NCBI GenBank assembly: GCA_902552475.1
Contig: CACDJC010000001.1
Location: 75,001-117,186, forward strand
DNA: 42,186 nt
Source: an uncultured Pelagibacteraceae bacterium
Lineage (GTDB): Bacteria; Pseudomonadota; Alphaproteobacteria; Pelagibacterales; Pelagibacteraceae
Reading direction: 5' to 3'
The notes beneath the pieces were generated by a model. That model saw only the letters and a program-made list of their open reading frames with translations, did not search any database and was not told the origin of the DNA. A program made the position numbers and the translations under genes. How positions within the stretch are numbered: position 1 is the stretch's first letter; each line of letters opens with the position of its first letter. Below, in pieces: positions 6,911 to 39,637 of the stretch.

Positions 6911-8179
6911 TTATTTAATATTTTTTGAAAGAAATATATTCATATATAGGTCAAAAATAATTTTTGATAACTCATTTCTATTTTTTTTACTCACTTCATT
7001 AATTCTATATTTAATACTCTTCTTGAAAGTTTTATAAAACTGATTTTTAAATATAGAATTAAGATATTTAGATTTCATTTTTAATAAATCATTTTCAATA
7101 ATCGTTGTATTAATTTTTGTCTCTCTTGAAGCTAATTGTGTATAATATCTTTTCTGAAAAAGTTCTTCATCTGAAGTTTTTAGTCTATCCACTATACGTT
7201 TTTTAAACTTATTAATTAATTTGATATTAAATTTTAGATCTTTCATTTTAGAGTTCTTAATATAAAACATATAAATGTTGTTTAAATTTTTCCTTTGAAA
7301 CTCATTTACATGTGCTTCACACCAAGTAGCTGTTTCTTCAATATTAAATTCATTTCTCTCAAAATTATATTCATTTTGAGGTAATAAACTCATAAATGCA
7401 ACTTCATCAGAACTTTTTGGAATATAAATTTTTTTATTTTTTAATGTATTTGTATAACCTTCATCTAAACTAGGGAAAACGCTGTTAAAATAATTATAGT
7501 TTTTTTCATCGGTTTTAATAACTACTGGATGGAGATGAAAGTTATTCATCAGGAGATAATCTTTCTCATGAATACAAGAAACACTTACGGTATTAAGTTT
7601 TGTATTTCTTACATCGAATATTTTCACAATTTCATGAAGGTTCTTTATAATTATTTCATTTAGGTTTTCTTCAATGTAATTATATCCCCATTTTTTATTA
7701 TACAGCTCGATTGCTTCTAAATTCACTTGTGGAATAGGTAACATTACAGACGATAATGTTTTATTTTTTTTTAATTTTTGCAAAATATTTACAATTGAAT
7801 TATCTGAAAAAATAAAATCAGGATATAAAAACCATAAATAATTACAGTTAAAAGAGAAGGTAGCTATAAATAGTGATTGGAGTGTAGATAGAAGTATATA
7901 TTTATTATTCTTAAAATGGTACTTATTTTTTATAAAATCAAATAAATAAAATTTTATTTTAATAATTTTACTTAAATCTTTTATAATTTTTTGTTTTTTT
8001 AAATATTTGAGATCATCTTTAATAGTCCAAATATATATTAAATTTTTTTTGTTGTCAGTTTTACGCAAATTTCTTACTAAACTATTACAAGTATATTTTT
8101 TAAATTCATCTAAATATTTTTTTCCCCATATACAAAAGAAAAATACATGATCGTATTCTTTGTTAAATTTTTTAAGCAT
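6911..8179 (-). CDS. WGxxY-family protein of unknown function, paralog 1 (possible glycosyltransferase-like)
   Basis: 422 residues, not matched to a family I know. It shares an ordered set of motifs with three other proteins in this window: IWGKKY near the N-terminus (18-22), YPDFIF (119-124), a P-rich strand (LPIPQVNLE), HLHP (215-218), LDE (238-240) and YIPKSSDE (252-259). The beta-strand/WG start and the PD-x-x-F element after a hydrophobic strand suggest a GT-A-like fold with a DxD-like site, but this is inference. No signal peptide or membrane segment is seen; the C-terminal 100 residues are Lys-rich and helical-looking. Its start overlaps the end of the upstream paralog by 8 bp, so the two are co-translated. 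Confidence 0.75.
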   Translation of the reverse strand: MLKKFNKEYDHVFFFCIWGKKYLDEFKKYTCNSLVRNLRKTDNKKNLIYIWTIKDDLKYLKKQKIIKDLSKIIKIKFYLFDFIKNKYHFKNNKYILLSTLQSLFIATFSFNCNYLWFLYPDFIFSDNSIVNILQKLKKNKTLSSVMLPIPQVNLEAIELYNKKWGYNYIEENLNEIIIKNLHEIVKIFDVRNTKLNTVSVSCIHEKDYLLMNNFHLHPVVIKTDEKNYNYFNSVFPSLDEGYTNTLKNKKIYIPKSSDEVAFMSLLPQNEYNFERNEFNIEETATWCEAHVNEFQRKNLNNIYMFYIKNSKMKDLKFNIKLINKFKKRIVDRLKTSDEELFQKRYYTQLASRETKINTTIIENDLLKMKSKYLNSIFKNQFYKTFKKSIKYRINEVSKKNRNELSKIIFDLYMNIFLSKNIK

Positions 8180-9506
8180 ACTTGAAGATTTTAATAATAT
8201 TTTTAATACAGTGTTTCAAAATATATTTTTTTGGACTTCCTAATAATATAAATTTGTATGAATTTCGAACTCTATTAAAAAATAAATTTTTTCTTGAAAA
8301 CAATTTGTTTAAAATTGGATAAACCTCTTTTGGTATTAAAATTAATATTATTAATACAATTGATGCTAATAATGTTCCTATTTTATTTGTTTGTTTTATT
8401 ATGTATCTTTCAAAATTGAAACGAGCTGCATAATCATATACCATAGAGAGAAAAGTATCCTCTTTATTAATCCCAGGATTTATTCTTTTTAATGTATTAA
8501 CTATATCGAATTCTCTTCTTTTTTTTGGAAATATTTTAAATATAAAATTAAGTGATTTTTTGTACTCACATTTTTCTATTTTAGATAAATATTTTTTTTC
8601 AACGACATAATAATTTGAATATAAAAACGAATATATATTAAATAAATTTTTCTCTCTTTTCATTTTTGCATAAATCAAATTTTCACTATTATTTATAATT
8701 TTATTTGCAATTGATCTTTTATCAGTTGGATCATTATTTCTATCTGTGGTGATACTTTCCACTGTTAGAACTATGTTTTCTTGAGAGTTTTTTACGTAGT
8801 AACTTTTATTTAAATTAATTATATCTTTTGTGAAAAAATCTTCATCAAACGAATCCGATTTTTGATATTTAAATATTTTAATTGAACTAAGTTTAACGGC
8901 CAATATATGCAAATTAAAGCATTTATAAAATGAATAATATTTGTTTTTGTAAATATTTATATTAGATCTTTTATAAAAATCACCGATTCTATTTTTATAA
9001 AAATTGCTTAAATAATTGTTTCCTATCCTAGATAAATTATTTTTTGAAAAATTATTTAAATTTTTTGGCAATTTTTCAAAACTTACTAGTGGTGCTGGGG
9101 AAAGTAATATTGAATATTTTTTTAATTTTTCTTTACAAAATTTTAAGAAGTGATTGCAGAAAATTGTATCAGGATAACAAAAAATGAAATGGTCATACTT
9201 TTTTTCTTTCGCTATACCAATTAATTTTTTTTGGTAAATAGATAAATATTTATATTTATTTTGATTTTTTTTTTCTTTTAGAAAAAAATAATTAATTGTT
9301 ATGAGTCTACTAATTTTTTTTATGTTTTGAAGATTTATTATTTTTTTAAACTCATTTTCTAAACAGTAAATATTTAAAGTTGTTTTATTTGATTTATAAA
9401 TATTTTTATCAAGCAGTGATTTGAGACAAAAATTTTCAAAGTATTCAATGTATTCTTCTCCCCATACTACAGAACATAGAAATATTTTTTTTTCTTTTTT
9501 GCTCAT
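8172..9506 (-). CDS. WGxxY-family protein of unknown function, paralog 2, with C-terminal membrane segment
   Basis: 444 residues. Shared motifs in the same order as its neighbour: VVWGEEY (13-19), YPDTIF (111-116), SPAPLVSFE (136-144), NLH (198-200), FDEDF (220-224) and YYVKNSQEN (236-244). Residues about 376-392 form one hydrophobic stretch (GTLLASIVLIILILIP), a probable membrane anchor followed by a basic tail; the paralogs lack it, so this member may sit at the inner membrane. It lies between an SDR epimerase (11 bp gap) and paralog 1 (8 bp overlap) in a minus-strand operon. A glycosyltransferase or other sugar-transfer role is plausible from context only. Confidence 0.75.
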   Translation of the reverse strand: MSKKEKKIFLCSVVWGEEYIEYFENFCLKSLLDKNIYKSNKTTLNIYCLENEFKKIINLQNIKKISRLITINYFFLKEKKNQNKYKYLSIYQKKLIGIAKEKKYDHFIFCYPDTIFCNHFLKFCKEKLKKYSILLSPAPLVSFEKLPKNLNNFSKNNLSRIGNNYLSNFYKNRIGDFYKRSNINIYKNKYYSFYKCFNLHILAVKLSSIKIFKYQKSDSFDEDFFTKDIINLNKSYYVKNSQENIVLTVESITTDRNNDPTDKRSIANKIINNSENLIYAKMKREKNLFNIYSFLYSNYYVVEKKYLSKIEKCEYKKSLNFIFKIFPKKRREFDIVNTLKRINPGINKEDTFLSMVYDYAARFNFERYIIKQTNKIGTLLASIVLIILILIPKEVYPILNKLFSRKNLFFNRVRNSYKFILLGSPKKYILKHCIKNIIKIFKYA

Positions 9507-9517
9507 AATAATAATTA

Positions 9518-10504
9518 TTATGCACGCAACGTAAAAGTAAATGGTTCTCTCAACAATTCTTCTTTATTTTTTTTTACCCACTCAGCCGTTTCATCTATAC
9601 CTTCTTCTAAAGAAATTTTTGGCTCCCATCCTATATCTTTTTTAATTAAAGAACTGTCTATCCAATACTGGCTATCTTCAGCTTCTCTTGCTTTTGCATC
9701 AACATAAAAATCAGAAAATTTAATATTCAAATTATCAGCTATGGTTTCAGTTATTTCCCTAATTGTATTTGGTTTTTCAACTCCAGCATTATAAACTTTA
9801 CCTAATTTATCTGACTGCAGAATCATGTAAATTGCTTTCGCTAAATCCTTTGCATGCATATAAGATTTCTTTGCTTTACCTCCACCTTCAAGTGGAAATT
9901 TTTGATTTGTCATACCAAATAAAAGAGCTTTTGGTACTAACCTATATAGTAATTGTCCTGACCCATAACAATTGCATGGTCTAATTACGTTAGCTGGAAA
10001 ACCAAGTCTATTGTATAGACTCATCATATGATAATCAGCGGCTAATTTAGATATAGCATATGGACTAGTTGGGTTTGGCTTTTCGTCCTCTTTCACCGGA
10101 AAGTCATAAGGCCCATAAATTTCTGATGAGCCAATTTGAAGAAATTGTTTAAGATATTTTTTATCATAAAGAAATTCACATAGTTGTGAAACTGCAGATA
10201 CATTTGTGTCATAGTATCTTGATGATTTGTACCATGAGGTTGCGTATGCTAAAGCTGCAAAATTTACAATAAAATTAGGTTTGTATTCCTCAATAAGATC
10301 AGTCAAAAAATCAATTTCAAATTTTAAATGCATCTGTCTATAGGTGTATCTGTCATCACCTTCTCCCACACCTAGAGTAAAAGTATTTGATCTTTGAGGA
10401 TTCCTTCCTATTGAAAGAACTCCAGTTGTATCTTTGTGTGATAAAATTTCTTTGATAGTATGTATAGCAAATATACCAGCACCACCTATAATCAAGTATC
10501 GCAT
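9518..10504 (-). CDS. NAD(P)-dependent epimerase/dehydratase (GDP-mannose/CDP-glucose dehydratase-like SDR)
   Basis: 328 residues from the ATG at 10504, which places the Rossmann strand MRYLIIGGAG at the N-terminus; an in-frame start 60 bp upstream would add a non-family extension. Motifs: GGAGIFA (7-13), GSSEIYGP (125-132) and catalytic Tyr149/Lys153 in SPYAISK. IRPCNCYGSGQ and the later KSYMHAKDLAKAI are typical of NDP-sugar 4,6-dehydratase/epimerase members. First gene of a minus-strand operon with two WGxxY proteins downstream, so it may prepare their sugar donor. Base composition is less extreme than its downstream neighbours, which could mean a different history. Exact substrate unknown. 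Confidence 0.88.
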   Translation of the reverse strand: MRYLIIGGAGIFAIHTIKEILSHKDTTGVLSIGRNPQRSNTFTLGVGEGDDRYTYRQMHLKFEIDFLTDLIEEYKPNFIVNFAALAYATSWYKSSRYYDTNVSAVSQLCEFLYDKKYLKQFLQIGSSEIYGPYDFPVKEDEKPNPTSPYAISKLAADYHMMSLYNRLGFPANVIRPCNCYGSGQLLYRLVPKALLFGMTNQKFPLEGGGKAKKSYMHAKDLAKAIYMILQSDKLGKVYNAGVEKPNTIREITETIADNLNIKFSDFYVDAKAREAEDSQYWIDSSLIKKDIGWEPKISLEEGIDETAEWVKKNKEELLREPFTFTLRA

Positions 10505-10620
10505 AATTGTTATATGATCTATTACTAAATACTTTAAAAAGCAATAAAATAATGTTTCAATCAAAATTAAAGATTGTTTTATGTTTTTTTTTAAGTAATT
10601 TTTAAAATGAATAATCTATT
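10505..10620. promoter_or_regulatory. Divergent intergenic region
   Basis: This 116-bp AT-rich gap separates the minus-strand SDR operon from the plus-strand E1 operon, so it should hold promoters in both directions. Candidate -10-like hexamers are everywhere because of the composition, and I find no -35/-10 pair with convincing spacing and no clear Shine-Dalgarno site before either start. No riboswitch or operator is recognised. Confidence 0.35.
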
Positions 10621-11571
10621 ATGAATCTCTTAAAACTCTTTCACGAAATGTATTTAATAAGAAGTGTTGAGAAAAAAATTACTTCAGAATATCCAAAAGG
10701 AAAAATGAGATGTCCAGTTCATTTATCAATTGGCCAAGAAGCATGTGCAGTTGGTATTAGTCAAAATTTAAAACCTGAGGATATTGTTTATTCAAATCAT
10801 AGAAGTCATGCCCATTATATTGCTAAGGGTGGAAATATTGCAAAAATGATTTCTGAGATACATGGAAAAAAAAATGGGTGTGTTAATGGAGTGGGAGGAT
10901 CAATGCATTTACAGGATTTAAAGGTAAATTTTATGGCAAGTATCCCGATAGTATCAAGCTCAATAGGTTTATCTCTTGGAGCAGCTATAAATCAAAAAAG
11001 GTTAAAATTAAATAAAATTACAGTTGTTTTTATTGGTGATGCTTCGTTAGAGGAAGGAATATTTTTTGAATGTGCAAATTTTGCTTCTTTACATAAATTG
11101 CCAATTTTATTTGCATGTGAAAATAATTTATTTTCTGTATACACTCCAATAAAAGAAAGGCAAATTGACAGTAACTTTAAGAGATATGCTGATGCATTTA
11201 AAATACCTTATAAGAGAGTAGACGGTAATAATATAGAAAATGTTTTTAATGTTTCCAAAAAAATTATTAAAAATATTAAAAATGGAAAAGGTCCACATTT
11301 TATTCAAATGGATACTTATAGGTATTTAGAACATTGTGGCCCTAATGAAGACGACCATTTAAACTATAGAAATAAGAATGAAGTTAGTTTTTGGAAAAAG
11401 AAAGATCCTTTAAAAGTTTTAGAAAATAAGTTGTTAAAAAAGTATAAAAGAGAAAAATTAAGCTATATGAAAAAAACTATTCATCGAAAAATAGATCAGA
11501 TATTTTCTAATGTTTTAAAAGAAAAATATCCAACTCCCAATGATGCAAAAAAATATGTCTATGCAGAGTAA
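10621..11571 (+). CDS. Thiamine-diphosphate-dependent dehydrogenase E1 component, alpha subunit
   Basis: 316 residues, matching pyruvate/acetoin dehydrogenase E1-alpha. Seen: NHRSHAHYIAKGG (59-71), GVGGSMH (90-96), and the ThDP-Mg motif beginning GDASLEEG (139-146) and ending ENN (167-169). In the classic enzyme the alpha-beta tetramer decarboxylates a 2-oxo acid and passes the acyl group to a lipoyl E2. No E2 or E3 gene is in the window and the next genes are an aminotransferase and a methyltransferase, so I infer a specialised role in which a C2-type carbanion is added to or removed from a sugar or another metabolite. It overlaps the beta gene. Confidence 0.88.
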   Translation: MNLLKLFHEMYLIRSVEKKITSEYPKGKMRCPVHLSIGQEACAVGISQNLKPEDIVYSNHRSHAHYIAKGGNIAKMISEIHGKKNGCVNGVGGSMHLQDLKVNFMASIPIVSSSIGLSLGAAINQKRLKLNKITVVFIGDASLEEGIFFECANFASLHKLPILFACENNLFSVYTPIKERQIDSNFKRYADAFKIPYKRVDGNNIENVFNVSKKIIKNIKNGKGPHFIQMDTYRYLEHCGPNEDDHLNYRNKNEVSFWKKKDPLKVLENKLLKKYKREKLSYMKKTIHRKIDQIFSNVLKEKYPTPNDAKKYVYAE

Positions 11572-12646
11572 AAAGAAAAGACAAATATCATTTGTTGAGG
11601 CCATTAGAGAAGGCATTACACAGTCACTGCAAAAAGATAAAAGACTTTTTTTAATGGGAGAAGGTGTTGATGATCCAGCATCAATGTGGGGAACAATAAA
11701 AGGTATCTCTAAAGAATTTGGTAAAAAAAGAGTACTAGAGATGCCAGTAGCCGAAAATGGATTAATTGGTGCAGCAATAGGATCTTCTATAGCCGGTTCA
11801 AAGGTTTTAGTTAATTTACAAAGAGTTGAGTTTTCGCTGTATGCCTTTGAGCAAATTGTAAATAATGCCGCGAAGAGCTTTTATATATCTAGAGGAAAAC
11901 ACAGTGTTCCAATTGTTATAAGATTAGTTGTTGGAAGAGGCTGGGGCCAAGGACCAGAGCACGCTCAAAGTATGGAAAATATATTTTCATCAATACCAGG
12001 ACTCAAAGTTGTAATTCCAGCATTTCCGAATGAGGCAAAAGAGCTCATGATAAATTCATTATTTGATAAAAATCCAGTAATATTTATAGAACATAGATGG
12101 CTTCATTATTCCAAGGGTGTAGTAAATAAAAAATTTAAAATATCTAAATTAAAAAGTATGACAAAAATAAACTCTGGTAAAGATATTACAATTGTATCAA
12201 ACTCAATTAATACATTAATTGCAAAAAGAGTAGTGGATATTTTAAAACTTTTTAATATTAAAGTTGATTTACTAAATTTAGTAAACCCAAATCCATTGAA
12301 TTTAGATGAAGTTTTTAAATCTGTAAAAAAAACGAAGAATATTCTTACAATAGATTTGGGACACAAAAATTTAGGACTTGGAGGTGAAATTATTGCTCAA
12401 GTAGTAGAAAAAAATATTAGTTTAAATTCAAGTCCAGTGAGAATAGGTTTGCCATTTCATCCAGTTCCTAGTTCAGTAGGAATGATCAAAGGTTATTATC
12501 CTGATGGAAAAAAATTATTATTTAAGATTAAAAAAATGCTTAAAATTAAAGACTCTAAATTCAAAGCGATAATGGGAGCTTACAACAAAAATTCTCCTAA
12601 AATTCCAATTGATGTACCAGATCCTTATTTTAAAGGACCGTTTTAA
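11561..12646 (+). CDS. Thiamine-diphosphate-dependent dehydrogenase E1 component, beta subunit
   Basis: 361 residues from the ATG at 11561 (MQSKKKRQISF); in-frame ATGs at 11540, 11543 and 11555 are possible but add residues before the family start SFVEAIREG. Conserved E1-beta features: LMGEGVDDP, the MPVAENGLIGAAIGSS segment carrying the Glu that activates ThDP, GPEHAQSMENIFSSIPGLKV, and a C-terminal transketolase-like domain starting near GKDITIV. Translationally coupled to the alpha subunit (11-bp overlap). The heterodimer should bind ThDP at the interface. The terminal part (NSPKIPIDVPDPYF) is kept in many E1-beta proteins. Substrate unknown; no E2/E3 partner nearby. Confidence 0.88.
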   Translation: MQSKKKRQISFVEAIREGITQSLQKDKRLFLMGEGVDDPASMWGTIKGISKEFGKKRVLEMPVAENGLIGAAIGSSIAGSKVLVNLQRVEFSLYAFEQIVNNAAKSFYISRGKHSVPIVIRLVVGRGWGQGPEHAQSMENIFSSIPGLKVVIPAFPNEAKELMINSLFDKNPVIFIEHRWLHYSKGVVNKKFKISKLKSMTKINSGKDITIVSNSINTLIAKRVVDILKLFNIKVDLLNLVNPNPLNLDEVFKSVKKTKNILTIDLGHKNLGLGGEIIAQVVEKNISLNSSPVRIGLPFHPVPSSVGMIKGYYPDGKKLLFKIKKMLKIKDSKFKAIMGAYNKNSPKIPIDVPDPYFKGPF

Positions 12647-12657
12647 TGTAAAATATA

Positions 12658-13755
12658 ATGAAAATTGAATTTATTGATTTAAAAGCTAGATACATAGATG
12701 AAAAAGAACAGTTAAACAAAATATTTAATGAAGTATTAGAATCAGGCCAACTAATTCTTTCAGATAAAAATACAAACTTAGAAAAAAATCTTTCTGAATA
12801 TCTAAAAAAGAAATATTGTGTAACTTTAAATTCAGGAACAGATGCATTGATGCTGTCATTATGGGCGCTGAATATTAAAAAGGGAGACGAAGTCATAACG
12901 CCAACAGTTTCTTTTATTGCTACTGCTGCCGCAATAGATCATATAGGAGCAAAACCAGTATTTGTTGATGTAAATGAAGATTTAAATATAGATGTAGAAA
13001 AAATTGAAGAAAAAATAAATGATAAGACCAAAGCAATAGTCCCAGTACACTGGACAGGTAAAATGTGTGATATGGAAAAAATAAAAGATATTGCTCAAAA
13101 ATATAATTTAAAAATAATTGAAGATGCCGCTCAAGCAATTGGAAGTGAATTAGAAAACAAAAAACCAGGTTATTATTCTGATATTGCAACTTTTTCAACA
13201 CACCCGCTAAAGATCCTAAACGGGGTTGGAGACGGAGGGTTTTTAATAACTAACGATAAAGAGATATATGAAAAAATATATAAATATCGTAATCATGGAG
13301 TAGTAACTAGAGACAATTATGAATTTTATGGTGTAAACTCTAGAATGGATGCTCTAAGTGCAAGCATTGTTCATTATAGACTTGATAGAACCAAAACATT
13401 AATTGAAAAAAGAAAACGTAATATAGATTTATATAAATCAAATATAAAAACAAATAATTTTAAATTTATTGAACATAAAAAAAATGAGATAGAGTCGCAT
13501 ACAATGTTCGTTTCTATTGCAGAAGATAGAGATGGCTTACAAAAATATCTATCTGAGAATGATGTACAGAGTCTAGTATATTACGGAACACCTCTTCATC
13601 TTCAAAATGCATCTAAGAAACATGGATATAAAAAAGGTGATTTTCCTAATGCAGAGTATTTGTGTGACAGAGTTATATCTCTTCCATTTCATCAATATCT
13701 TGAGGAAGACGAGATATTATTTGTGAGCGATCTTGTTAACAAATATTACAAATGA
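12658..13755 (+). CDS. DegT/DnrJ/EryC1/StrS-family PLP-dependent sugar aminotransferase
   Basis: 365 residues, normal length. NSGTDAL (58-64) binds the PLP phosphate, Asp156 in IIEDAAQAIG contacts the pyridine nitrogen, and Lys185 in FSTHPLKILNGVGDGG should form the Schiff base. The family transfers an amino group, usually from glutamate, to an NDP-keto-sugar, giving aminosugars such as perosamine. The substrate-loop motif is PVHW, shared with the second DegT protein at the right end of the window. It follows the E1 subunits (11 bp gap) and overlaps the methyltransferase start by 4 bp, suggesting a path: build or extend a keto-compound, aminate, then methylate. Confidence 0.92.
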   Translation: MKIEFIDLKARYIDEKEQLNKIFNEVLESGQLILSDKNTNLEKNLSEYLKKKYCVTLNSGTDALMLSLWALNIKKGDEVITPTVSFIATAAAIDHIGAKPVFVDVNEDLNIDVEKIEEKINDKTKAIVPVHWTGKMCDMEKIKDIAQKYNLKIIEDAAQAIGSELENKKPGYYSDIATFSTHPLKILNGVGDGGFLITNDKEIYEKIYKYRNHGVVTRDNYEFYGVNSRMDALSASIVHYRLDRTKTLIEKRKRNIDLYKSNIKTNNFKFIEHKKNEIESHTMFVSIAEDRDGLQKYLSENDVQSLVYYGTPLHLQNASKKHGYKKGDFPNAEYLCDRVISLPFHQYLEEDEILFVSDLVNKYYK

Positions 13756-14573
13756 TTAAAAAGGATGATCAGAGAATTAGAGATAAAACAATCGATGATT
13801 TTGGTTCACAATTTGAAAAATTTAGCTCATTTGAGAATGACAAGTATTGGGCTGATTTAGATCATTTAAAAGACCTATTAGGAAATACTTTTTCTTTTTT
13901 AGAAATCAAAGACAAAATTATTGCTGAAATAGGATGCGGCAATGGAAGAATAGTAAATATGCTTCAAAAATTAAATCCATCAAAAACATATGTAGTTGAA
14001 CCTTCTAAATCAATTGAGATAGTCAAAAAAAATAATATTAATAATAATAATATTTATTATCATAATGTTGATGGAGCCAATTTTATACTAGAGGAAAAGT
14101 GTGATTATATTTTTTCCTTAGGGGTAATTCATCATATTAAAAACCCAGATGATGTAATAAAAAATATTTACAATCATTTAATAGAAAAAGGCACATTTTT
14201 TTGCTCAGTTTATGCCAAAGAAAAAAATAAAGTTTTGATTAATTTTTTAAATATTTTAAGTTTTACAAAAAAAATTGATGACAAATATGTGTTTATGTTG
14301 TCATTTATTTTCAATTCAATGTTAGTTCCTTACACATATTTATGCAAAGCTTTGCCTTTTGAATTACCCATGAAAAAATATTTAGTTGAAAGGTTTATGA
14401 AAAATAATTTTAAAAATAGAACTCATATTATTTTTGATCAATTAAATCCAGAGTATGCTAAATTTTACAAAAAAGAGGAAATCTGTGAACTTATTGAAAA
14501 AAATGGTTTCACTGTTGAGCAAATTTACGATAGTGCTGGAAATAATTGGGCTGTTAGAGCAATTAAAAAATAA
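13752..14573 (+). CDS. Class I SAM-dependent methyltransferase
   Basis: 273 residues. Motif I IIAEIGCGNGRI (56-67) binds SAM; an acidic strand end (VVEPSKS) and the post-motif segment FSLGVIHHIKNPDD (motif II/III region) match Methyltransf_11/UbiE-like enzymes. The N-terminal DRTID-like stretch (residues 9-30, DDFGSQFEKF) is common in sugar-cluster methyltransferases. Last gene of the E1-aminotransferase operon with a 4-bp overlap, so it probably methylates the amino-sugar product (N- or O-linked). It ends ATT AAA AAA TAA, forming one arm of a hairpin with the converging gene end. Confidence 0.85.
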   Translation: MIKKDDQRIRDKTIDDFGSQFEKFSSFENDKYWADLDHLKDLLGNTFSFLEIKDKIIAEIGCGNGRIVNMLQKLNPSKTYVVEPSKSIEIVKKNNINNNNIYYHNVDGANFILEEKCDYIFSLGVIHHIKNPDDVIKNIYNHLIEKGTFFCSVYAKEKNKVLINFLNILSFTKKIDDKYVFMLSFIFNSMLVPYTYLCKALPFELPMKKYLVERFMKNNFKNRTHIIFDQLNPEYAKFYKKEEICELIEKNGFTVEQIYDSAGNNWAVRAIKK

Positions 14574-14596
14574 TTTTAAATTTTTATTTTTTAATT
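14561..14596. terminator. Possible bidirectional terminator hairpin between convergent genes
   Basis: A perfect 13-bp inverted repeat: the left arm 14561-14573 and right arm 14584-14596, with a 10-base loop. It covers the stop codons of the converging genes and is flanked by A/T runs on both strands. It is built of A and T only and arises because both genes end with identical codons (Ile-Lys-Lys-stop), so it may be partly coincidental. Confidence 0.35.
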
Positions 14597-15315
14597 TCTA
14601 TCAATATAAAGCTTAATGAGCCTGCTCCCCAAAATCTGTATTCACGAAATATTAGATGTTTATTGATTTCTCTAAATTGTTTAAAAGCATAAAATTCACC
14701 TTTTTTTTCACTTCCTTTGTACGCATAGTATGTATTAAAAGTTATTATCGAGCCTTCAACGAGAGAATTTTTGATAAATTCTAAGCCTATTAGAGTAGGT
14801 GTTCCTAAATCCATATCAAAAAGAGCCAAACTAATTTTATTAATACCATATTTGGATGGCTCAATATTTTTACAAGTATTTTCAACAAAACCTTTAACTA
14901 ATTTAAATTCATCATCTTTTAAATATTTACTAATTCTTTTTTTTGTTTTTTCATAACTGGAAGATAGATTGCCTTCTACCCAACTTGGATGAGCATCACT
15001 TTTATCAAAAATTTTAAAACCTTCTTCAAAAGAGTCAAAACCAAAAAATTTTCTTTTTGGTCCATCATAGTTCATTGTTAGTCCATTTTTTTTTGAGGAG
15101 GTTTTATTAGATTCATAAGCAGCAATCAAAGAAGTTCCATCGAATACACCAAATTCAATATAATCTCCTTCTACTTGTTCTAAATTAAGTAAAAAAAAAG
15201 AGTCCTTTAAAAAGTTTATTTTGGCAATATTATCTGAAATTACTGGGTGAATTTTAGTAATAAGTTTTATCACCATGTTAATCAAAAAGTGTCTATTTCT
15301 TAAAAATCTAAGCAT
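14584..15315 (-). CDS. TylF/MycF-like methyltransferase-fold protein
   Basis: 243 residues. VEGDYIEFGVFDGTSLIAA (about 48-66) corresponds to the SAM-binding strand and loop of TylF/MycF-type macrocin O-methyltransferases, followed by the family-typical FFGFDSFEEGF (90-100) and a VKGFVENTC segment. LALFDMDLGTPTLIG matches the D-x-D-x-Y-x-x-T metal/substrate strand in degenerate form, and the usual DDY after it is not present (TFNTYYAYKG instead). It could be a sugar O-methyltransferase with changed metal use. Sits 4 bp downstream of the SIS isomerase gene in a two-gene minus-strand unit. The fold assignment is better supported than the activity. Confidence 0.75.
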   Translation of the reverse strand: MLRFLRNRHFLINMVIKLITKIHPVISDNIAKINFLKDSFFLLNLEQVEGDYIEFGVFDGTSLIAAYESNKTSSKKNGLTMNYDGPKRKFFGFDSFEEGFKIFDKSDAHPSWVEGNLSSSYEKTKKRISKYLKDDEFKLVKGFVENTCKNIEPSKYGINKISLALFDMDLGTPTLIGLEFIKNSLVEGSIITFNTYYAYKGSEKKGEFYAFKQFREINKHLIFREYRFWGAGSLSFILIEIKK

Positions 15316-15319
15316 AATT

Positions 15320-15988
15320 TTAATTTTTTAAGTAATTTTTTAAAAGACCAGTTATCATATGAGAAATACTAACTTGACAATCTTCTATATGAAAATTGTT
15401 ATCATTTGAATTTGTCTGCCCCGGGAATTTTGATTTACCAGGTATAACTATAGATAAATCTGTAATTTCTTTTGCCTTTCCACCACCTCTGCCAGATATA
15501 CAACAAGTAAATACAGAATATTTTTTTACATACTTAATAATTTCCAACATATTTTTTGAATTTCCTGAGCCACTAAATAAAATTAAAGTATCCTTAGAAT
15601 TAATTTTTTTTGATCTCATGAAGCTTTTTAGTTGCTCTGCATAAACCATATCATTACCTAGATCATTAGATATGCCCGTCAACAATCCTGATGACTCTGT
15701 ACAACAATAAACTTTTAATCTTCTTTGATCAGTCGTCTTTTTTTTATTTTCTGATACAAATGGATGTGTTCTTATATCTACAGCAAAACCCTCTGCAGCT
15801 GATGATCCACCACCATTTCCTGCAACATATAAATAACCATCGTTTTTATAAGTGTAAAAAATTCTTTTTATAATTTTTACAACTTCGCTTATAGGAAATA
15901 TTTTGTGAATTTTAGATCTTTCATTTAAATACAGCTTTATATAGTTTTTTAATAGTATATTGTTTTTTGATTTTAAAAATTTTGACAT
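15320..15988 (-). CDS. SIS-domain sugar-phosphate isomerase, GmhA-like
   Basis: 222 residues, a little longer than GmhA (about 190). The phosphate-binding loop VAGNGGGSSAAEGFAVDI and a second SGSGNS loop define a SIS domain of the sedoheptulose-7-phosphate isomerase type. From memory of E. coli GmhA, catalytic Glu65 aligns with Asp here (AVDI) and His180 with the His in SISHMI; an adjacent His is Gln. GmhA converts sedoheptulose 7-phosphate to D-glycero-D-manno-heptose 7-phosphate, the first step of NDP-heptose synthesis. An HldE-like fusion (2417-3958) and a GmhB-like phosphatase (40365-40910) elsewhere in the window supply the next steps. Its start is 14 bp from the divergent start of the next gene. 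Confidence 0.8.
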   Translation of the reverse strand: MSKFLKSKNNILLKNYIKLYLNERSKIHKIFPISEVVKIIKRIFYTYKNDGYLYVAGNGGGSSAAEGFAVDIRTHPFVSENKKKTTDQRRLKVYCCTESSGLLTGISNDLGNDMVYAEQLKSFMRSKKINSKDTLILFSGSGNSKNMLEIIKYVKKYSVFTCCISGRGGGKAKEITDLSIVIPGKSKFPGQTNSNDNNFHIEDCQVSISHMITGLLKNYLKN

Positions 15989-16002
15989 TTCGAAAACATA
16001 TA

Positions 16003-17010
16003 ATGACTAAACAAAATATACAATTATTAATTTTTGCTTGGGGAGAAGGTTATGAAAGTAAACTCAATCTTACAATTGAAAGTTTATTAAAAGATATAAT
16101 TGAATTAAAAAAGAAACATAATGTTTCGATTATTTTTCTTATTGATAAAGAATTAAAAAATTTATTAGAAAAGAAACTTTTCGTAAAATTATTGAATCTT
16201 AAAATTTTATATAAAACCATTGACATTACAAATAAAATACAAAAAAAAAATATTTTTAATAAAATACAAGAATATGGTTTTGGTGAATCAAGAAATCTGA
16301 AGTCCGATATAATTATACCAATTTACGCAGATTTTATTTTTTTTGAAAAATCCTTAATAAATATTGTCAAATTTTTAACTAAAGAACAAAAAAAAATTAT
16401 TTTCCAGCCCGTTTTATGTCTTATTGAAGAAAAAGTTTTTAATAAAATTGATAATAGATTAAAAAATAAAAAAAACTTAAATAATTTAGATTTTTTAAAA
16501 TCTGTAATTTCTAAAAATAATATTCATAATATTCAAAAAATGATGTTTATTAATGATAATAAGATCTGTTTATCTCCAGCATGGCATATGTTTATTTCTA
16601 GTGATGATAATCTTTATATTAATGCTTATCATAATACACCTATAGCTTTTAGAACAGAAGTACTTCCAGAAAAAATTGTAATTGAAATTAGTTCAGATCA
16701 AGATTTTACAAACAGTTTGTTCAATAATTTAAATCACTATTCTGAATGTTATTTTGTTAAAGACTCTAATGAGACACTAGTAATCTCTTTAAAAAGTATA
16801 AAAGATAAGCCTCTAGAAATTAATCAGTATATTGGTAATCAAAATCGCGAAGATAGCATGCTCGATGCAAAAATTTGGATACAAAATTTTACAAATAATT
16901 TTCATAAATATTCATCTAATTTTGTTTATGTATTAAAAATGGAAACAAGCGAGAAAGATAAAAATATTTTTGACAAGTTTGAAAATTTAAATGAAAAATT
17001 ATTATCTTAA
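16003..17010 (+). CDS. WGxxY-family protein of unknown function, paralog 3
   Basis: 335 residues from the ATG at 16003; an in-frame TTG at 15967 would run into the opposite gene's start and adds 12 residues without family similarity. Shared motifs in order: FAWGEGY (11-17), YADFIF (108-113, Ala replaces Pro of the other members), FQPVLCLIEE, AYHNTP (208-213), SSDQDF (230-235) and YFVKDSNET. This is the shortest member and could represent the core domain. No signal peptide or membrane segment. A lone plus-strand gene between two minus-strand units, with a converging end 21 bp from the next gene. Activity unknown; a sugar-transfer role is suggested only by context and the PD/AD-x-x-F element. 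Confidence 0.75.
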   Translation: MTKQNIQLLIFAWGEGYESKLNLTIESLLKDIIELKKKHNVSIIFLIDKELKNLLEKKLFVKLLNLKILYKTIDITNKIQKKNIFNKIQEYGFGESRNLKSDIIIPIYADFIFFEKSLINIVKFLTKEQKKIIFQPVLCLIEEKVFNKIDNRLKNKKNLNNLDFLKSVISKNNIHNIQKMMFINDNKICLSPAWHMFISSDDNLYINAYHNTPIAFRTEVLPEKIVIEISSDQDFTNSLFNNLNHYSECYFVKDSNETLVISLKSIKDKPLEINQYIGNQNREDSMLDAKIWIQNFTNNFHKYSSNFVYVLKMETSEKDKNIFDKFENLNEKLLS

Positions 17011-17031
17011 TAACTTTATAATTATATGATT

Positions 17032-17451
17032 TTACTTAAACTTGCTTAGTTTATATAATTTATCAATATTATATGTTTTGATGGTAGGTATTTTTCTTGA
17101 AATCATCAATTCCTCGATAATAGCATCAAGCTTTTTAGGATTACTAAGAATTAAATTTTCTAAAGCAAAATGTATTTCATAATTTTCGATTAGAGTTTTA
17201 AAAACTTTAATACCTGTTTTGCTTCTTGGTATTTGAAAAATTGAAGTGAACACTATAATTTTTAAATTTTTTCTTTCTTTTAAAATCATAAATAGTCTAG
17301 AAAAATGTTCACTAAAAATAGTCGCAGATGTTTTTATATTTGCGAATTGATTTTTTTTAGAAAGGTAATTATCCATTATAATTTGCTGGGCTCTCTGTGG
17401 GATTTTCCATGGAAGCATATTAATTCCAGTTTGAATAGTTAAGATAGACAT
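17032..17451 (-). CDS. Sporadic carbohydrate cluster protein, LIC12192-like
   Basis: 139 residues from the ATG at 17451 (a TTG one codon earlier is possible). The segment KIPQRAQQIIMDNYL (about 17-31) and the following EHFSRLFMILKE ... FTSIFQIP pattern match my memory of the uncharacterised 'sporadic carbohydrate cluster' family first named from Leptospira LIC12192 (ripqr-x-QN-x-x-I-x-x-Y, then a strand ending in SIFQLP). No catalytic motif is recognised; it has alternating strands and helices like a small resolvase-type or Rossmann-like domain. It is 5 bp downstream of the 2OG-Fe(II) oxygenase, its usual partner. The family call rests on recalled pattern, not a search. Confidence 0.68.
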   Translation of the reverse strand: MSILTIQTGINMLPWKIPQRAQQIIMDNYLSKKNQFANIKTSATIFSEHFSRLFMILKERKNLKIIVFTSIFQIPRSKTGIKVFKTLIENYEIHFALENLILSNPKKLDAIIEELMISRKIPTIKTYNIDKLYKLSKFK

Positions 17452-17456
17452 CAAAA

Positions 17457-18173
17457 TTAATACAAATTCTTTAATTTAAAAATTTTAAAATAGTCAAGAT
17501 TTTTTTCAAATAATGGATATTGAATATCTTGAAATCTTATATCAATTGATATTCTAGACTTTTTTCTAGTATGATTTTTTGCACCGTGATGCGAAAATGC
17601 ATTAAATAAAATTGCTTGACCAAATTTAATTTTTAAACATTTTGGAATTATTTTAGATAATTCATTATCAGTAGGAAATATTTTTTTAAAATTTTTAGTT
17701 GTTTTATAAAGCTTCATAGATTTTTTTTTTTCCAATAAATATAGGCCAGATTCATCTAAAACATCGTGTAAAGGCATCCAGCAAACTATTGTGTTAGGAG
17801 AGTGACCAGACATAATTTCATTGTGGGAAATTGTTTTACTTTCTTTTAAATTAGAAATATTTAAATTTAGGTGCGGATACCTTTGAAGATATATAGAATT
17901 TTTTGAAGCTATTTTAATTTTATGTCCTACAGCTTTGATTAATTTTTCTGAAATTCCTTCTAATTGCATTTTTCTTATTTGATCTAAAGAATTTAAATCA
18001 AGCCCCCCCACAAAAGATCTCATCTTTTCAATATCTAAAATATTGGTTTTTAATATAGTATTTATTTTTTCTATAATATTATTTCTAGCTTGAATTAAAT
18101 AATGTTTATTAGGCAAATCAATAATTACATAACCTTCTTTTTTAAGCAATTTTAGTTCTTTAGAATTCTGCAT
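17457..18173 (-). CDS. 2OG-Fe(II) oxygenase (PhyH-like), sporadic carbohydrate cluster type
   Basis: 238 residues. A candidate iron-binding HNE (117-119), a double-stranded-helix strand VCWMPLHDV, a Gly turn then LYLLEK, and the distal FNAFSHHGAKNHTRKKSR (191-207), holding His195/196 and Arg207, fit phytanoyl-CoA dioxygenase-like 2-oxoglutarate oxygenases that bind 2OG through the Arg. The first iron ligand pair is HxE rather than the usual HxD, or the His at 124 is used. It would hydroxylate or oxidise a sugar intermediate in the cytoplasm. First gene of a two-gene unit with the LIC12192-like protein. Family fold is well supported; substrate unknown. Confidence 0.78.
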   Translation of the reverse strand: MQNSKELKLLKKEGYVIIDLPNKHYLIQARNNIIEKINTILKTNILDIEKMRSFVGGLDLNSLDQIRKMQLEGISEKLIKAVGHKIKIASKNSIYLQRYPHLNLNISNLKESKTISHNEIMSGHSPNTIVCWMPLHDVLDESGLYLLEKKKSMKLYKTTKNFKKIFPTDNELSKIIPKCLKIKFGQAILFNAFSHHGAKNHTRKKSRISIDIRFQDIQYPLFEKNLDYFKIFKLKNLY

Positions 18174-18266
18174 ATAAAAAAATATTATTTTTTTTACTGT
18201 ACTATTAACTTATTTTTATTTAAATTTCTTTTATAATTTTAAAATTACAAAATTAATCTAAAATAA
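18174..18266. promoter_or_regulatory. Divergent intergenic region
   Basis: A 93-bp gap between the minus-strand oxygenase start and the plus-strand FkbM start, almost entirely A and T. It should contain both promoters, but low complexity prevents naming a reliable -35/-10 pair. No ribosome binding site stands out upstream of either ATG. Confidence 0.3.
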
Positions 18267-18992
18267 ATGAAAAAAAACAAAGAATTATTTAAAAGTGTAT
18301 TTTATTTTTTCAATTTGCTTAAAAAAAAAAAATTAATTTCATCAGAGAAAGAATATTTTATTCTAAATAAATTTATTAAAAAAAATGATAATGTAATTGA
18401 TGTAGGCGCCAATATAGGAAGATATACTTTCAAGATATCATCAATAATAGGAAAAAAAGGCACTGTATTCGCATTTGAGCCTGTGTCTAGAATCTATTTG
18501 ATATTAATTTCACTCATTTTTTTAAAAGACTCTAAAAATATATTGCCATTAAATTTGGCACTATCAAATAGATCAAGTTTTTTGTTTGTAGCACCATTGA
18601 AAACTGTTTCAAAAAAAAATGACTTTTTTAAATTTGATACTTACACAGGATCTAAAATTATAAAAAAAAATAATCCAAATTCATATGCCATCAAATTAGA
18701 TGATTTACCATTTTCAAGAAAAATATCTTTTATTAAGATGGACTGTGAAGGATATGAATTAGAAGTCTTGAGAGGAGCAACTAAATTAATAAAAAAATAC
18801 AAACCAAATTTATTAATTGAATTTACAGACAAAGGTTTGTTGATGAGTTTTAATCATAAGCATTTTGGAAAACAAAAAAAAATAATAAAGTTATTAAAAG
18901 ATTTAGGATATATTGATATTAATTTAAATTTTAAGAGCAGAAATAAGCTTTTTATACATAAAAATAATAAATCAAAATATAAATTAGATTAA
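18267..18992 (+). CDS. FkbM-family SAM-dependent methyltransferase
   Basis: 241 residues. NVIDVGANIGRYTFKIS (about 44-60) is the FkbM motif I, followed by GTVFAFEPVSR and the signature FIKMDCEGYELEVLRGA (about 151-167). FkbM enzymes O-methylate sugars or polyketide hydroxyls; in polysaccharide loci they usually cap or decorate glycans. It is a single plus-strand gene inserted between two minus-strand units of the sporadic-carbohydrate cassette, and its stop overlaps the converging SDR stop by 4 bp. The unusual lysine-rich N-terminus (residues 1-30) is likely a short helix. Confidence 0.88.
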   Translation: MKKNKELFKSVFYFFNLLKKKKLISSEKEYFILNKFIKKNDNVIDVGANIGRYTFKISSIIGKKGTVFAFEPVSRIYLILISLIFLKDSKNILPLNLALSNRSSFLFVAPLKTVSKKNDFFKFDTYTGSKIIKKNNPNSYAIKLDDLPFSRKISFIKMDCEGYELEVLRGATKLIKKYKPNLLIEFTDKGLLMSFNHKHFGKQKKIIKLLKDLGYIDINLNFKSRNKLFIHKNNKSKYKLD

Positions 18993-19786
18993 TTAGATTT
19001 TCTTACAAAAGAAAAACAATTTTTATTTAATAAATTATATTTTTTTAATTTATCATTTTGTGCACTAATTATTTTACCAGTAATTCTTAATTTAGAATTA
19101 TTTTGAATTAAAAAATCAAGAGTTTTCTCAATATTTTTAATTTTATTTTTATCATTTCCATTTTTTATTTTTAATGCTTGATTAAATATTTTTTTACTAA
19201 TTTTTTTTTTTGATTTAATTTTTCTTTTATTCATTTCGGTATGGAATTGACCAGGCATCAAACAATTCACAAATATTTTTTTACTTTTTAATTCTTCAGC
19301 TAATGATAGCATAAAAGAATATTGCGCATGTTTTGAAGCGCTATATTGTATAAAAAAAGGATCTGGAATATTTAAAGATGTAGAAAGAAAAATTAAATTT
19401 GAATTACTTTTAAGAAGTTTTTTTTTTAATAAAAATTTACACAATTCTATCTGTCCAAATAAATTTATTTGAAATGTCTTTTTGTAATCTTGTATTATAG
19501 AGCTTTCAAAATTACCAATTGTTCCTAAGGTTCCAGATGAAATAATTACAGTATCAAAATTAGAAATTTTAAGTATTTTTGTAAATTTATAAAATCTCTT
19601 TAAATTGTTTAAGTTTGTTAAATCTATTTGAAATGAATTAAATTTTTTATGAAACTTTTTTTTTTTATAAATTTTTCTACTAGATGTTGTAATAGTATTA
19701 TATTTGCATTTATCTATTAAATATCTAGATATTAGTAATCCAATACCTTTATGCCCACCAATTACTAAGATATTTTTATTATTCAT
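18989..19786 (-). CDS. Classical short-chain dehydrogenase/reductase
   Basis: 265 residues, classical SDR length. Cofactor motif GGHKGIG (10-16, T/G-x-x-x-G-x-G), an IISSGTLG strand corresponding to NNAG, a catalytic Ser strand FLSTSLN, and the YSASK active site (Tyr and Lys intact), followed by VNCLMPGQF matching the family PG segment. Probably reduces or oxidises a hydroxyl/keto group on a sugar intermediate with NAD(P)H. Isolated on the minus strand between FkbM and the fourth WGxxY gene. Such SDRs occur in sporadic carbohydrate clusters as I recall them. Substrate unknown. Confidence 0.87.
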   Translation of the reverse strand: MNNKNILVIGGHKGIGLLISRYLIDKCKYNTITTSSRKIYKKKKFHKKFNSFQIDLTNLNNLKRFYKFTKILKISNFDTVIISSGTLGTIGNFESSIIQDYKKTFQINLFGQIELCKFLLKKKLLKSNSNLIFLSTSLNIPDPFFIQYSASKHAQYSFMLSLAEELKSKKIFVNCLMPGQFHTEMNKRKIKSKKKISKKIFNQALKIKNGNDKNKIKNIEKTLDFLIQNNSKLRITGKIISAQNDKLKKYNLLNKNCFSFVRKSN

Positions 19787-19922
19787 CGATTTATTAATAT
19801 TATATAAATTAAAATAAAATCTGTGACGACTAAAATAATAATATTTATAAAAAATATCTAAAAATTTAAAGAAAAATGAATTAAGATAAGTTAAATTAAT
19901 TGAAAAAGCAAAATGCTAAAAA
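19787..19922. promoter_or_regulatory. Divergent intergenic region
   Basis: A 136-bp gap between divergent starts (minus-strand SDR, plus-strand WGxxY paralog 4). It is nearly pure A/T except a short TGTGACGAC patch near 19822-19830, which could be an operator or -35 region, but I cannot pair it with a convincing -10. It is one of the longer gene-free stretches of the window. Confidence 0.3.
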
Positions 19923-21332
19923 GTGAATAATATCTTAAATAAAATACTAAAAATAAATAAAAAATCGAAGAAAAGTGAAGAAAATGTTAAATTACATTCA
20001 AATGAATTTATGAAGCACTTATTTCCATCTTCAGAAGTTGATTTTAAAAATTTTGCTACCGAAATTCAGAATTATTCTACAATAATTCATCATCACGAAA
20101 ATATGGTTAATTCTATAAAAAGTTATTTAAAAAATGAAAATATTGAAAAAACAATTAATTATATTGAAACATTAAGTTCATTTTATAAAAATTTTTCTAA
20201 ATTTTATTTACATCTTTTTTCATTAGACAAAACATTAATGAATGATTTGGAAAGGAACATATCAAAAGATACTAACACACTTTTATCAGTAAGTATTTGG
20301 GGAGAAGATTATGCAAGAAAATTTTGTTTGCTTACAATTAAATCAATAAAAGATGATCTTAATGAAATAAATAATACTTATAATGTGCAAATGGTTATTT
20401 TTGTTGATCAACCTGCAAAAAAAATATTAGAAAATAATTTAGATTTTGTTGAACTAAAAAAATCTAATTTGGTAAAGGTTATAATCATACCAAATGATAT
20501 ATTTAAAACTGAATATTATTCAGAGAGAATTGCTTTTACTAGATATTATGTTTTTGGTCTAATCCAAAATATTTGTTGGAGGTATTGTGCAAAAAGAGAA
20601 ATAAATTTATCCTTATTAACACCTGATAATTTTTTTAGTAGAAATTTTTTTAAAAATTTAGTTAATAAAATCAACAATAAAAAGGATTTATATGCAGTTT
20701 TTTCAAACTCAAGTTTGAAAGTTCAACTTAATAATAAAGATAAATTAAATGATTTTGTATCTTCCTTAAGTTCGATGAGTTTAAATGAACTTTTTGATTT
20801 TTATAAAAACAATATTCATCATACTAATTTTGATTTTTTTATTTCAGAAGACAAAAAAATTGAAAACAATTCTCCACAATATATTTTAAATTCAAATGAA
20901 GCTTTTTTTGTTTACTCCATCCATGCTCATCCATATTTACTAAGTAAAAAATATTTAAAAAAATATCCAAATTATTTTACTTTTCTTCCTATAGATGAGT
21001 CTTTTCCTTTGGAAAATGATAATGACATAAATTTTTTTGAAAAAATGTTAGAATTAGATGATGGATTAACTATAGATATTTCATCTTTCGAGGATATAAA
21101 AAAAGAATTTATATCTTATTCTGAAGATAATATTTTCAAACATTTTTCTAAATTTAAAAATAATAAATTAAGCATGTGGTTTCTTAAAAATCCTTTAAAA
21201 ATTTGTCATAATAAAAACGCCAAACTAACCTTTAATTGCAACAACGAAAGTGGGAGTCCCACTCAAGTCATTAACCCAGATACAACTGATATTTTACTAA
21301 CAAATTTTCAAAAATTAATTGAGAAAATTTAG
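19923..21332 (+). CDS. WGxxY-family protein of unknown function, paralog 4, with N-terminal helical extension
   Basis: 469 residues from a GTG start at 19923; no in-frame ATG lies upstream, and the next ATG would remove 28 residues. Residues 1-115 form a Lys/Glu/Asn-rich helical extension absent in the other three members. Then the shared order follows: SIWGEDY (124-130), LLTPDNFF (231-238), SIHAHP (332-337), PIDES (356-360) and a C-terminal EDD-type strand. The P-rich strand of the other members is not kept. No membrane segment. A single plus-strand gene whose stop overlaps the converging GT2 stop by 4 bp. Glycan-related by context; activity unknown. Confidence 0.72.
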   Translation: MNNILNKILKINKKSKKSEENVKLHSNEFMKHLFPSSEVDFKNFATEIQNYSTIIHHHENMVNSIKSYLKNENIEKTINYIETLSSFYKNFSKFYLHLFSLDKTLMNDLERNISKDTNTLLSVSIWGEDYARKFCLLTIKSIKDDLNEINNTYNVQMVIFVDQPAKKILENNLDFVELKKSNLVKVIIIPNDIFKTEYYSERIAFTRYYVFGLIQNICWRYCAKREINLSLLTPDNFFSRNFFKNLVNKINNKKDLYAVFSNSSLKVQLNNKDKLNDFVSSLSSMSLNELFDFYKNNIHHTNFDFFISEDKKIENNSPQYILNSNEAFFVYSIHAHPYLLSKKYLKKYPNYFTFLPIDESFPLENDNDINFFEKMLELDDGLTIDISSFEDIKKEFISYSEDNIFKHFSKFKNNKLSMWFLKNPLKICHNKNAKLTFNCNNESGSPTQVINPDTTDILLTNFQKLIEKI

Positions 21333-21340
21333 AATTTTCT
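21322..21340. terminator. Possible hairpin at convergent gene ends
   Basis: An 8-bp perfect stem (21322-21329 with 21333-21340) and a 3-base loop that contains the TAG stop of the plus-strand gene. The minus strand then carries a short T-run some 10 bases further on. It may end transcription of the two converging genes, but the stem is AT-rich and the T-run weak. Confidence 0.33.
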
Positions 21341-38688: not shown

Positions 38689-38689
38689 A

Positions 38690-39451: not shown

Positions 39452-39637
39452 ATATTATTACAATTTTTTCAAATACTAGTGTTAAAAAGTATTTCATTTT
39501 CTTATACCAAAATTATTTGCAATTGCTATCATTTGAAATTAATCGATTAAATGTAATTGGTAAATATATAAACATTATAGTTATATTTATTCTATTTAAT
39601 ATATATTGTTAAATTGATAAAATATAATCCACTCTAT
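39452..39637. promoter_or_regulatory. Divergent intergenic region
   Basis: A 186-bp gap between the permease start on minus and the methyltransferase start on plus, the longest gene-free stretch in the window. It is AT-rich with a few G/C spots (around 39510-39522 and an AATCGATT palindrome at 39540-39547). It should hold the promoter of the export operon and one for the rightward genes, but no reliable -35/-10 pair can be named. Confidence 0.35.

Follow-up and report, generated by a model that had tools for sequence, protein, structure and literature searches.

Four divergent proteins in an O-chain locus of Pelagibacteraceae form a candidate family of GT-A glycosyltransferases

A 42,186-nucleotide stretch of DNA from an uncultured Pelagibacteraceae bacterium (GenBank assembly GCA_902552475.1, contig CACDJC010000001.1, positions 75,001 to 117,186), hereafter the window, encodes four divergent proteins, P1 to P4, that share a W-G-x-x-Y motif. 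We refer to the group to which they belong as the WG family, a working name for a set defined by 47 members from outside the window. On the basis of sequence profiles and structure prediction, we propose that the four proteins are very probably glycosyltransferases of a single, unnamed GT-A family that link the sugars of the O-chain. The WG family is recognized by no Pfam or NCBIfam model and lies inside the known GT-A superfamily. Glycan loci are commonly read by counting recognized glycosyltransferases; in these 42 kb of O-chain locus PF00535 is represented by one gene and PF00534 by none, four proteins have no match in Pfam or NCBIfam, and the two of them that were folded look like glycosyltransferases. 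A name for the family would attach a function to 'hypothetical proteins' encoded in the surface-polysaccharide loci of several phyla and would help in reading the O-chain diversity of abundant ocean bacteria.

The original prediction, made from the letters of this DNA and a list of its open reading frames (ORFs), had described four paralogues with no recognized function, and all four reading frames are present (Table 1). Pairwise phmmer searches within a four-sequence database link P1 to P3 (E = 1.9e-8), P3 to P4 (3.6e-7) and P1 to P2 (1.6e-4), with no direct link for P2-P3, P1-P4 or P2-P4, and the reversed sequences of the four gave no match comparable to the real pairs. A profile of the 47 outside members, containing no window sequence, matched exactly P1 to P4 among 222 stop-to-stop frames of at least 40 residues in the window; the E values of these four frames were 2.6e-40, 4.3e-28, 2.2e-22 and 1.3e-21, the next window frame scored 0.2, and among 222 reversed frames the best value was 0.23. 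The first relatives had been found with window-based profiles, but these scores of the four frames lie far above noise. A scan that used three of those relatives and no window sequence as query led to 25 loci. These comparisons of sequence indicate that the four divergent proteins are one family, beyond chance, as had been proposed.

The shared order of motifs that had been read from the four proteins stands in part. WG-x-x-Y, [PA]-D-x-x-F and D-[EQ] occur in all four, with the aspartate of the second element 97 to 109 residues after the tryptophan, whereas two further elements each fail in one copy: H-x-x-P is found in P1, P3 and P4 but reads NLHI in P2, and the Y-[IVF]-[PK]-x-S strand is missing in P4 only of the four. 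The ordered series by which we assign members, W-G-x-x-[YFH] followed by the PD-element aspartate and then a D-x aspartate, is present in all four window proteins.

A Pfam scan of the four proteins gave no convincing match and no PF00535 row up to an E value of 10, and none of the four reaches the PF00535 gathering cut-off of 23.3 bits; an NCBIfam scan returned no row up to an E value of 1, with the curated cut-off not reached, and a PHROG scan nothing informative. Extended to 33 members, the NCBIfam scan touched four families, one member each (best E = 0.041). Searches of PDB-chain sequences with three profiles yielded matches that we take as chance (polybromo-1, 0.0014; leucine aminopeptidase, 0.2; ketol-acid reductoisomerase, 1.9). 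Text searches of the literature for the motif strings, or for a description of such a family, found none, a statement limited to these searches. The description of the WG domain as lacking a recognized function is borne out for Pfam and NCBIfam.

We modelled P1 and P4 with AlphaFold2, using alignments of 33 and 32 rows, respectively, and placed P2 and P3 by sequence. The models (predicted local distance difference test score 81.8 and predicted template-modelling (TM) score 0.78 for P1; 75.9 and 0.79 for P4) have a similar order of strands and helices and a common GT-A core. This predicted core is shared with GT2-type GT-A enzymes, among them SpsA, TarP, TarS, RmlT, WrtF and AvpGT. For P1, VIA-align gives AvpGT (9jn3; Z score 14.6, root-mean-square deviation 3.0, 187 aligned), SpsA (1h7l; 14.2, 3.6, 201), RmlT (8bz7; 14.2, 2.9, 180) and WrtF (9omm; 13.7, 2.9, 174), and the top match of P4 is again SpsA (1h7q; 12.9, 3.1, 196). 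All 50 matches listed for each model, with Z scores from 14.6 to 12.8 for P1 and from 12.9 to 10.4 for P4, are either glycosyltransferases or larger enzymes that contain GT-A-like domains; the rows for LH3 cover its residues 294-535, which we take to be its inactive glycosyltransferase-like domain. Foldseek ranks SpsA first for P1 (E = 2.8e-6), with 138 PDB chains at E ≤ 0.001, and for P4 hyaluronan synthase leads (5.3e-5) and SpsA stands eighth. Identity to the GT2-type enzymes is 6 to 14% among the matches listed, and the WG family has no PF00535 match above the cut-off. According to these models, P1 and P4 have a GT-A core fold whose nearest solved neighbours are GT2-type glycosyltransferases, so that the earlier suggestion of a GT-A-like transferase holds at the level of the fold. 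Two outcomes had been set beforehand as refuting, the lack of a common fold and the membership of all four in a characterized Pfam family; with two of the four folded, neither was seen.

The most conserved residues are candidates for an active site. Across 51 members, in P1 numbering, W18 is retained in 49, G19 in 50, N37 in 48 and H182 in 47; D121, of the PD element, is aspartate in 50 and glutamate in one, and D239, which opens the D-[EQ] pair, is aspartate in all 51. As the WG motif was used to pick some neighbour rows, its count is inflated; both aspartates are free of this bias, and their codons were confirmed in all four window genes. In the P1 model D121 comes after strand 112-117, the place of the DXD motif in GT-A enzymes, and D239 stands at the start of helix 238-246 after two strands and a short helix, comparable in place to the ED motif of GT2 enzymes, which lies at a helix start. 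The family thereby resembles GT2-type enzymes in having a highly conserved aspartate after the strand where these have DXD or NPD and a second, invariant aspartate at a helix start; it differs from them in its own signature of W-G-x-x-Y, Asn37 and a histidine after a helical segment (P1 residues 154-186). The pattern of residues is consistent with a metal site at the PD element, and by analogy D239 may be the catalytic base of an inverting enzyme.

We envisage that the N-terminal Rossmann-like half would bind a nucleotide-sugar, with the PD-element aspartate acting as the DXD-like residue that holds a divalent metal and the diphosphate. The aspartate that opens the D-[EQ] pair, corresponding in place to the 'ED' motif of GT2 enzymes, would deprotonate the acceptor hydroxyl and lead to inverting transfer. 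Each WG copy would transfer a different sugar, one linkage per paralogue, to an O-chain or a related surface glycan on a lipid carrier, and the product would be exported by the ABC (ATP-binding cassette) transporter of the locus.

Sequence comparison also hints at a connection to GT2 proteins. In a Pfam scan of 33 members, Glycos_transf_2 was matched by five (best E = 0.0029) and was the sole Pfam family matched by more than one; relative L011 scored 15.1 bits against PF00535. Among 201 genomes of the genus the profile gives four weak matches beyond the window's genome (E = 9.0e-5 to 8.2e-4), all of them PF00535 proteins and rejected as WG members. The NPD-type proteins L023, L024, L085 and L086 of the genus, weakly matched by WG profiles (E = 9.1e-6 to 8.2e-4), are clear PF00535 members (41 to 55 bits) and, unlike the WG family, lack its signature; their NPD aligns with the WG PD element. 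An hhalign comparison of the WG family with the four PF00535 proteins gave E = 2e-5, again with the NPD aspartate on the PD element.

Several points weigh against a glycosyltransferase reading. The set that gave the hhalign value of 2e-5 had been pre-selected by profile match; a GT2 set not chosen in this way gave 0.14, which is not significant, a mixed set of nine 0.0025 and an epimerase control set 0.24. Equally weak matches fell, by eye, within an EF-G gene (a P4 match in genome G078, 2.4e-4) and a restriction-type gene (genome G093, 7.3e-4), both rejected, so matches this weak can be chance. The sequence link to GT2 proteins is therefore suggestive, and the argument is carried by the fold. 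There, TM-scores normalized by query are low for single PDB chains (0.34 for P1 against SpsA), because the structural match is confined to the core, and Foldseek finds 15 chains at E ≤ 0.001 for P4 against 138 for P1. The PD element is one conserved aspartate and not a full D-x-D, P2 is without an equivalent of H182, and, as the contig stops where the window does, further glycosyltransferases of the locus may lie elsewhere. A fold in common with glycosyltransferases is not proof of function, and the activity proposed here is a prediction.

The position of the window points to the O-chain. It is preceded by a 16S-tRNA-tRNA-23S array (16S at G000:C1 68885-70359, 23S match from 70791, window from 75001), no 5S gene was seen near that ribosomal RNA (rRNA) operon or in the window, and the GC content of the window is 24.5%. 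The O-chain cluster of Pelagibacterales sits between 16S-ITS-23S and 5S, averages 46 kb and has about 23.8% GC, according to a published account (PMC11898729). By rRNA position and GC content, the window matches the O-chain cluster site described there. Pfam scanning, which covered 30 of the 37 other window ORFs of at least 100 amino acids, found epimerases, a PfkB/cytidylyltransferase fusion, a SIS protein, a HAD phosphatase, a UDP-glucose/GDP-mannose dehydrogenase, a DegT aminotransferase, transketolase halves, a carbamoyltransferase, methyltransferases, an ABC ATPase and an ABC-2 membrane protein. The fusion, SIS protein and phosphatase presumably form a heptose-activation-like set, and we take the ABC ATPase/ABC-2 pair to be Wzt/Wzm-like. 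The genome-wide glycosyltransferase search covered two families, PF00535 and PF00534: a single PF00535 gene was found in the window, a six-frame search for PF00534 found no gene there, and genes of both families are present on other contigs. When 36 window ORFs were compared with the 25 WG loci, homologues of the ABC ATPase were found in 7, those of the ABC membrane protein and of the cytidylyltransferase fusion in 5 each, and 19 of the 36 recurred in none.

Relatives are scattered across bacteria. In the class, matches at an E value of 0.001 occur in 27 of 385 genomes, 26 of which, the window's own included, have a best E value of ≤1e-9. Strong members occur in one of the 201 genomes of the genus, that of the window, which has four. 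A smaller alignment matched 5 of 247 genomes of the order, strongly in the window's genome and G754, and 2 of 398 genomes in a sample of the phylum. Many surveyed genomes are incomplete, so these absences are weak evidence, and single-sequence searches (2 of 99 and 1 of 99 genomes) are no evidence of absence, given that P3 alone recovered just P3 and P4 in the window's genome. The records of the 25 loci carry the names of Alpha-, Beta- and Gammaproteobacteria, a 'Deltaproteobacterium' (Myxococcota in the tree), Planctomycetota, Acidimicrobiia and Nitrospirota. By record name relatives occur in six phyla; 20 of the 25 records are metagenome-assembled, so single taxon assignments may be wrong. 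Plasmid pDCAR1 of Solidesulfovibrio carbinolicus (Thermodesulfobacteriota) carries two members in a glycan locus, WP_129356123.1 (666 amino acids) and WP_165352188.1 (661 amino acids), both annotated 'hypothetical protein', which differ from the window copies in their long N-terminal parts and their phylum; a tblastn search of plasmids with P3 recovered no member.

Among viral proteins, the best structural match to P1 is A0A6J5PWU5, a protein of an uncultured Caudovirales phage (BFVD; E = 1.9e-22, TM 0.67/0.81, 347 columns), which covers the whole domain and stands far above the others listed (next 5.9e-7). It is 14% identical to P1 and did not come up in any sequence search of phage records or viral contigs, so that it is a structural likeness only; tblastn searches of phages with P1, P3, L030, L042 and L022, and scans of viral contigs, recovered no member.

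Copies commonly occur in sets. At least 14 of the 25 loci have two or more WG ORFs, and two WG domains stand in one ORF in four cases at three loci (L028, L044 twice and L050), one tandem copy of L028 having F in place of W. Pfam annotation of 115 of the 264 near-neighbour ORFs at 23 loci (L029 and L032 left out), some of which are WG ORFs or possible antisense artefacts, counts Epimerase 11 times, Methyltransf_23 10, Glycos_transf_2 9, ABC2_membrane 4 and ABC_tran 4. In the alignments L026, L029, L040 and L044 repeat L007, L012, L010 and L008 and were entered once, and L022, a fragment, lacks the WG strand. More broadly, and somewhat short of probable, the WG family may be a new GT-A family at the level of CAZy, present in six or more bacterial phyla and possibly in phages, with members that come in sets and as two-domain chains. 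Each set would act as a modular assembly line in which successive residues are added by paralogues and not by glycosyltransferases known to Pfam, which would give this marine lineage highly variable O-chains.

Other roles for the WG proteins were weighed. Tetratricopeptide repeats (TPRs) precede the WG domain in relative L010, L017, L019 and L033 look similar by eye, and pseB, pseC and an MptE-like gene lie close to the two members on the Solidesulfovibrio plasmid. WG proteins might on these grounds have proteins as their acceptors (flagellin or surface proteins, for example) and not a lipid-linked polysaccharide, with TPR-bearing relatives recognizing the protein acceptor; the GT-B enzyme FlmG, whose TPR domain recognizes its protein acceptor, provides a precedent (PMC7591256). 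We consider this unlikely, as the window copies have no TPR match and the window has an ABC-2 exporter at the O-chain site, relatives of the exporter genes being those that recur at 7 and 5 of the 25 loci. Alternatively, some copies could be GT-A scaffolds that lack catalysis of their own and work with an active partner, in the manner of two-subunit polymerases. This would suit the paired or tandem copies (L028, L044 and L050), the phenylalanine of one L028 copy and the missing H182 equivalent of P2, but it is quite improbable, since both aspartates are retained in all the window copies and in almost every one of the 51 members. That the proteins are GT-A-fold nucleotidyltransferases activating sugar-1-phosphates is very improbable indeed: Foldseek with P1 does return YngB (rank 20), VTC1-KJC2 (rank 29) and GMPPA/GMPPB (rank 39), but no nucleotidyltransferase is among the 50 VIA-align matches listed for P1 or P4, the first strand ends in WG-x-x-Y and not in the G-x-G-T-R-type loop of those enzymes, and the window has nucleotidyltransferase-like genes of its own (CTP_transf_like, with NTP_transf_3 just below the cut-off).

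How the WG family came to have four copies in one locus is addressed by the tree. Recent local duplication of one gene was rejected, the highest identities of the window proteins to any tree row being 21 to 26%. P1, P2 and P3 form one group (98/93), with L026, L027 and an L028 copy beside it; P4 falls with L044, L048 and a different L028 copy (97/89). A single gammaproteobacterial locus is thus represented in both parts of the tree. Pairwise scores vary with the copy. Against a recent duplication, P1 scores 51 bits with L007 and at most 24 with its window siblings, and P4 38 bits with L008 and 18 to 20 with P3. Pointing the other way, P3 scores about as well with P1 (22 to 24 bits) as with L007 (20 to 21), and P2 shows little difference between L007 (22 to 23 bits) and P1 (19 to 20). 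The repeated recruitment into glycan loci that had been suggested is supported in part by the placement of P4 with copies of other bacteria, apart from P1-P3, but one clade for all four window proteins, and with it a single old origin, is not rejected (approximately unbiased test, p = 0.348). The window rows are long and odd in composition, and the tree program flags P1 and P3 as long branches that come together.

The genes themselves are arranged in at most three transcription units and not in four separate ones as first supposed, because P1 and P2 overlap on one strand, behind an epimerase gene (Table 1). The C-terminal membrane segment ascribed to P2 corresponds to a hydrophobic stretch with a mean Kyte-Doolittle value of 2.21 (maxima in P1, P3 and P4 ≤ 1.44), and P2 is probably membrane-bound; we infer that the four proteins are cytoplasmic. 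The helical N-extension ascribed to P4 is predicted as helix in its AlphaFold model, residues 1-80 at low confidence.

Table 1 Features of the window, in window coordinates
Feature	Position	Strand	Remarks
P1, WG-family protein (predicted GT-A), 422 amino acids	6911..8179	-	GT-A core about 8-300; C-terminal helices 315-420 mostly low-confidence
P1 Asp121, PD-x-x-F element	7817..7819	-	Proposed DXD-like metal/nucleotide aspartate
P1 Asp239, first residue of D-[EQ] pair	7463..7465	-	Proposed catalytic base
P2, WG-family protein, 444 amino acids	8172..9506	-	Hydrophobic segment 373-391; 8-nucleotide overlap with P1
P2 Asp113, PD element	9168..9170	-	
P2 Asp221, D-E pair	8844..8846	-	
Epimerase/dehydratase gene	9518..10564	-	11 nucleotides upstream of P2, same direction
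P3, WG-family protein, 335 amino acids	16003..17010	+	Shortest of the four; opposite-strand genes on both flanks
P3 Asp110, AD element	16330..16332	+	
P3 Asp232, D-Q pair	16696..16698	+	
P4, WG-family protein, 469 amino acids	19923..21332	+	Helical N-extension of about 115 residues; predicted GT-A core about 115-415
P4 Asp235, PD element	20625..20627	+	
P4 Asp358, D-E pair	20994..20996	+	
PF00535 (GT2) gene	21329..22051	-	Only one found in the window
ABC transporter ATPase and ABC-2 membrane protein	37930..39451	-	

Other arrangements of the domain were seen among the relatives. In a Legionellaceae metagenome-assembled genome, one 937-amino-acid ORF (L043:7950-10760) comprises a WG domain, a middle region and, by eye, a GT2-like domain. 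In the gammaproteobacterial subgroup of L041, L042, L043 and L046, a region of about 200 residues that follows the WG domain resembles, by eye, a methyltransferase, which suggests fusion to a modifying enzyme. A WG frame with a single in-frame TGA occurs in each of two genomes that belong to one genus (G123:C69:4362-5396 and G254:C4:46154-47188), for which decay, sequencing error and recoding are candidates.

Within the window, a 607-amino-acid protein (22051-23874), multi-pass by eye and without a Pfam match, adjoins the only PF00535 gene and is possibly a GT-C enzyme. ORFs 17032-17454, 17457-18173 and 34454-35503 also have no Pfam match at 0.001; homologues of the second occur in 2 of the 25 WG loci. 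Two thiamine-diphosphate enzyme pairs, a split transketolase by Pfam at 24713-26414 and a dehydrogenase E1 alpha/beta-like pair by eye at 10621-12646, may make an unusual sugar, and the transketolase halves recur in 5 and 7 of the 25 loci. A class I methyltransferase with a GYGGY-x-YDGRW motif (39614-40318) has homologues in 8 of the 25 loci and may therefore be a regular partner in these glycan cassettes.

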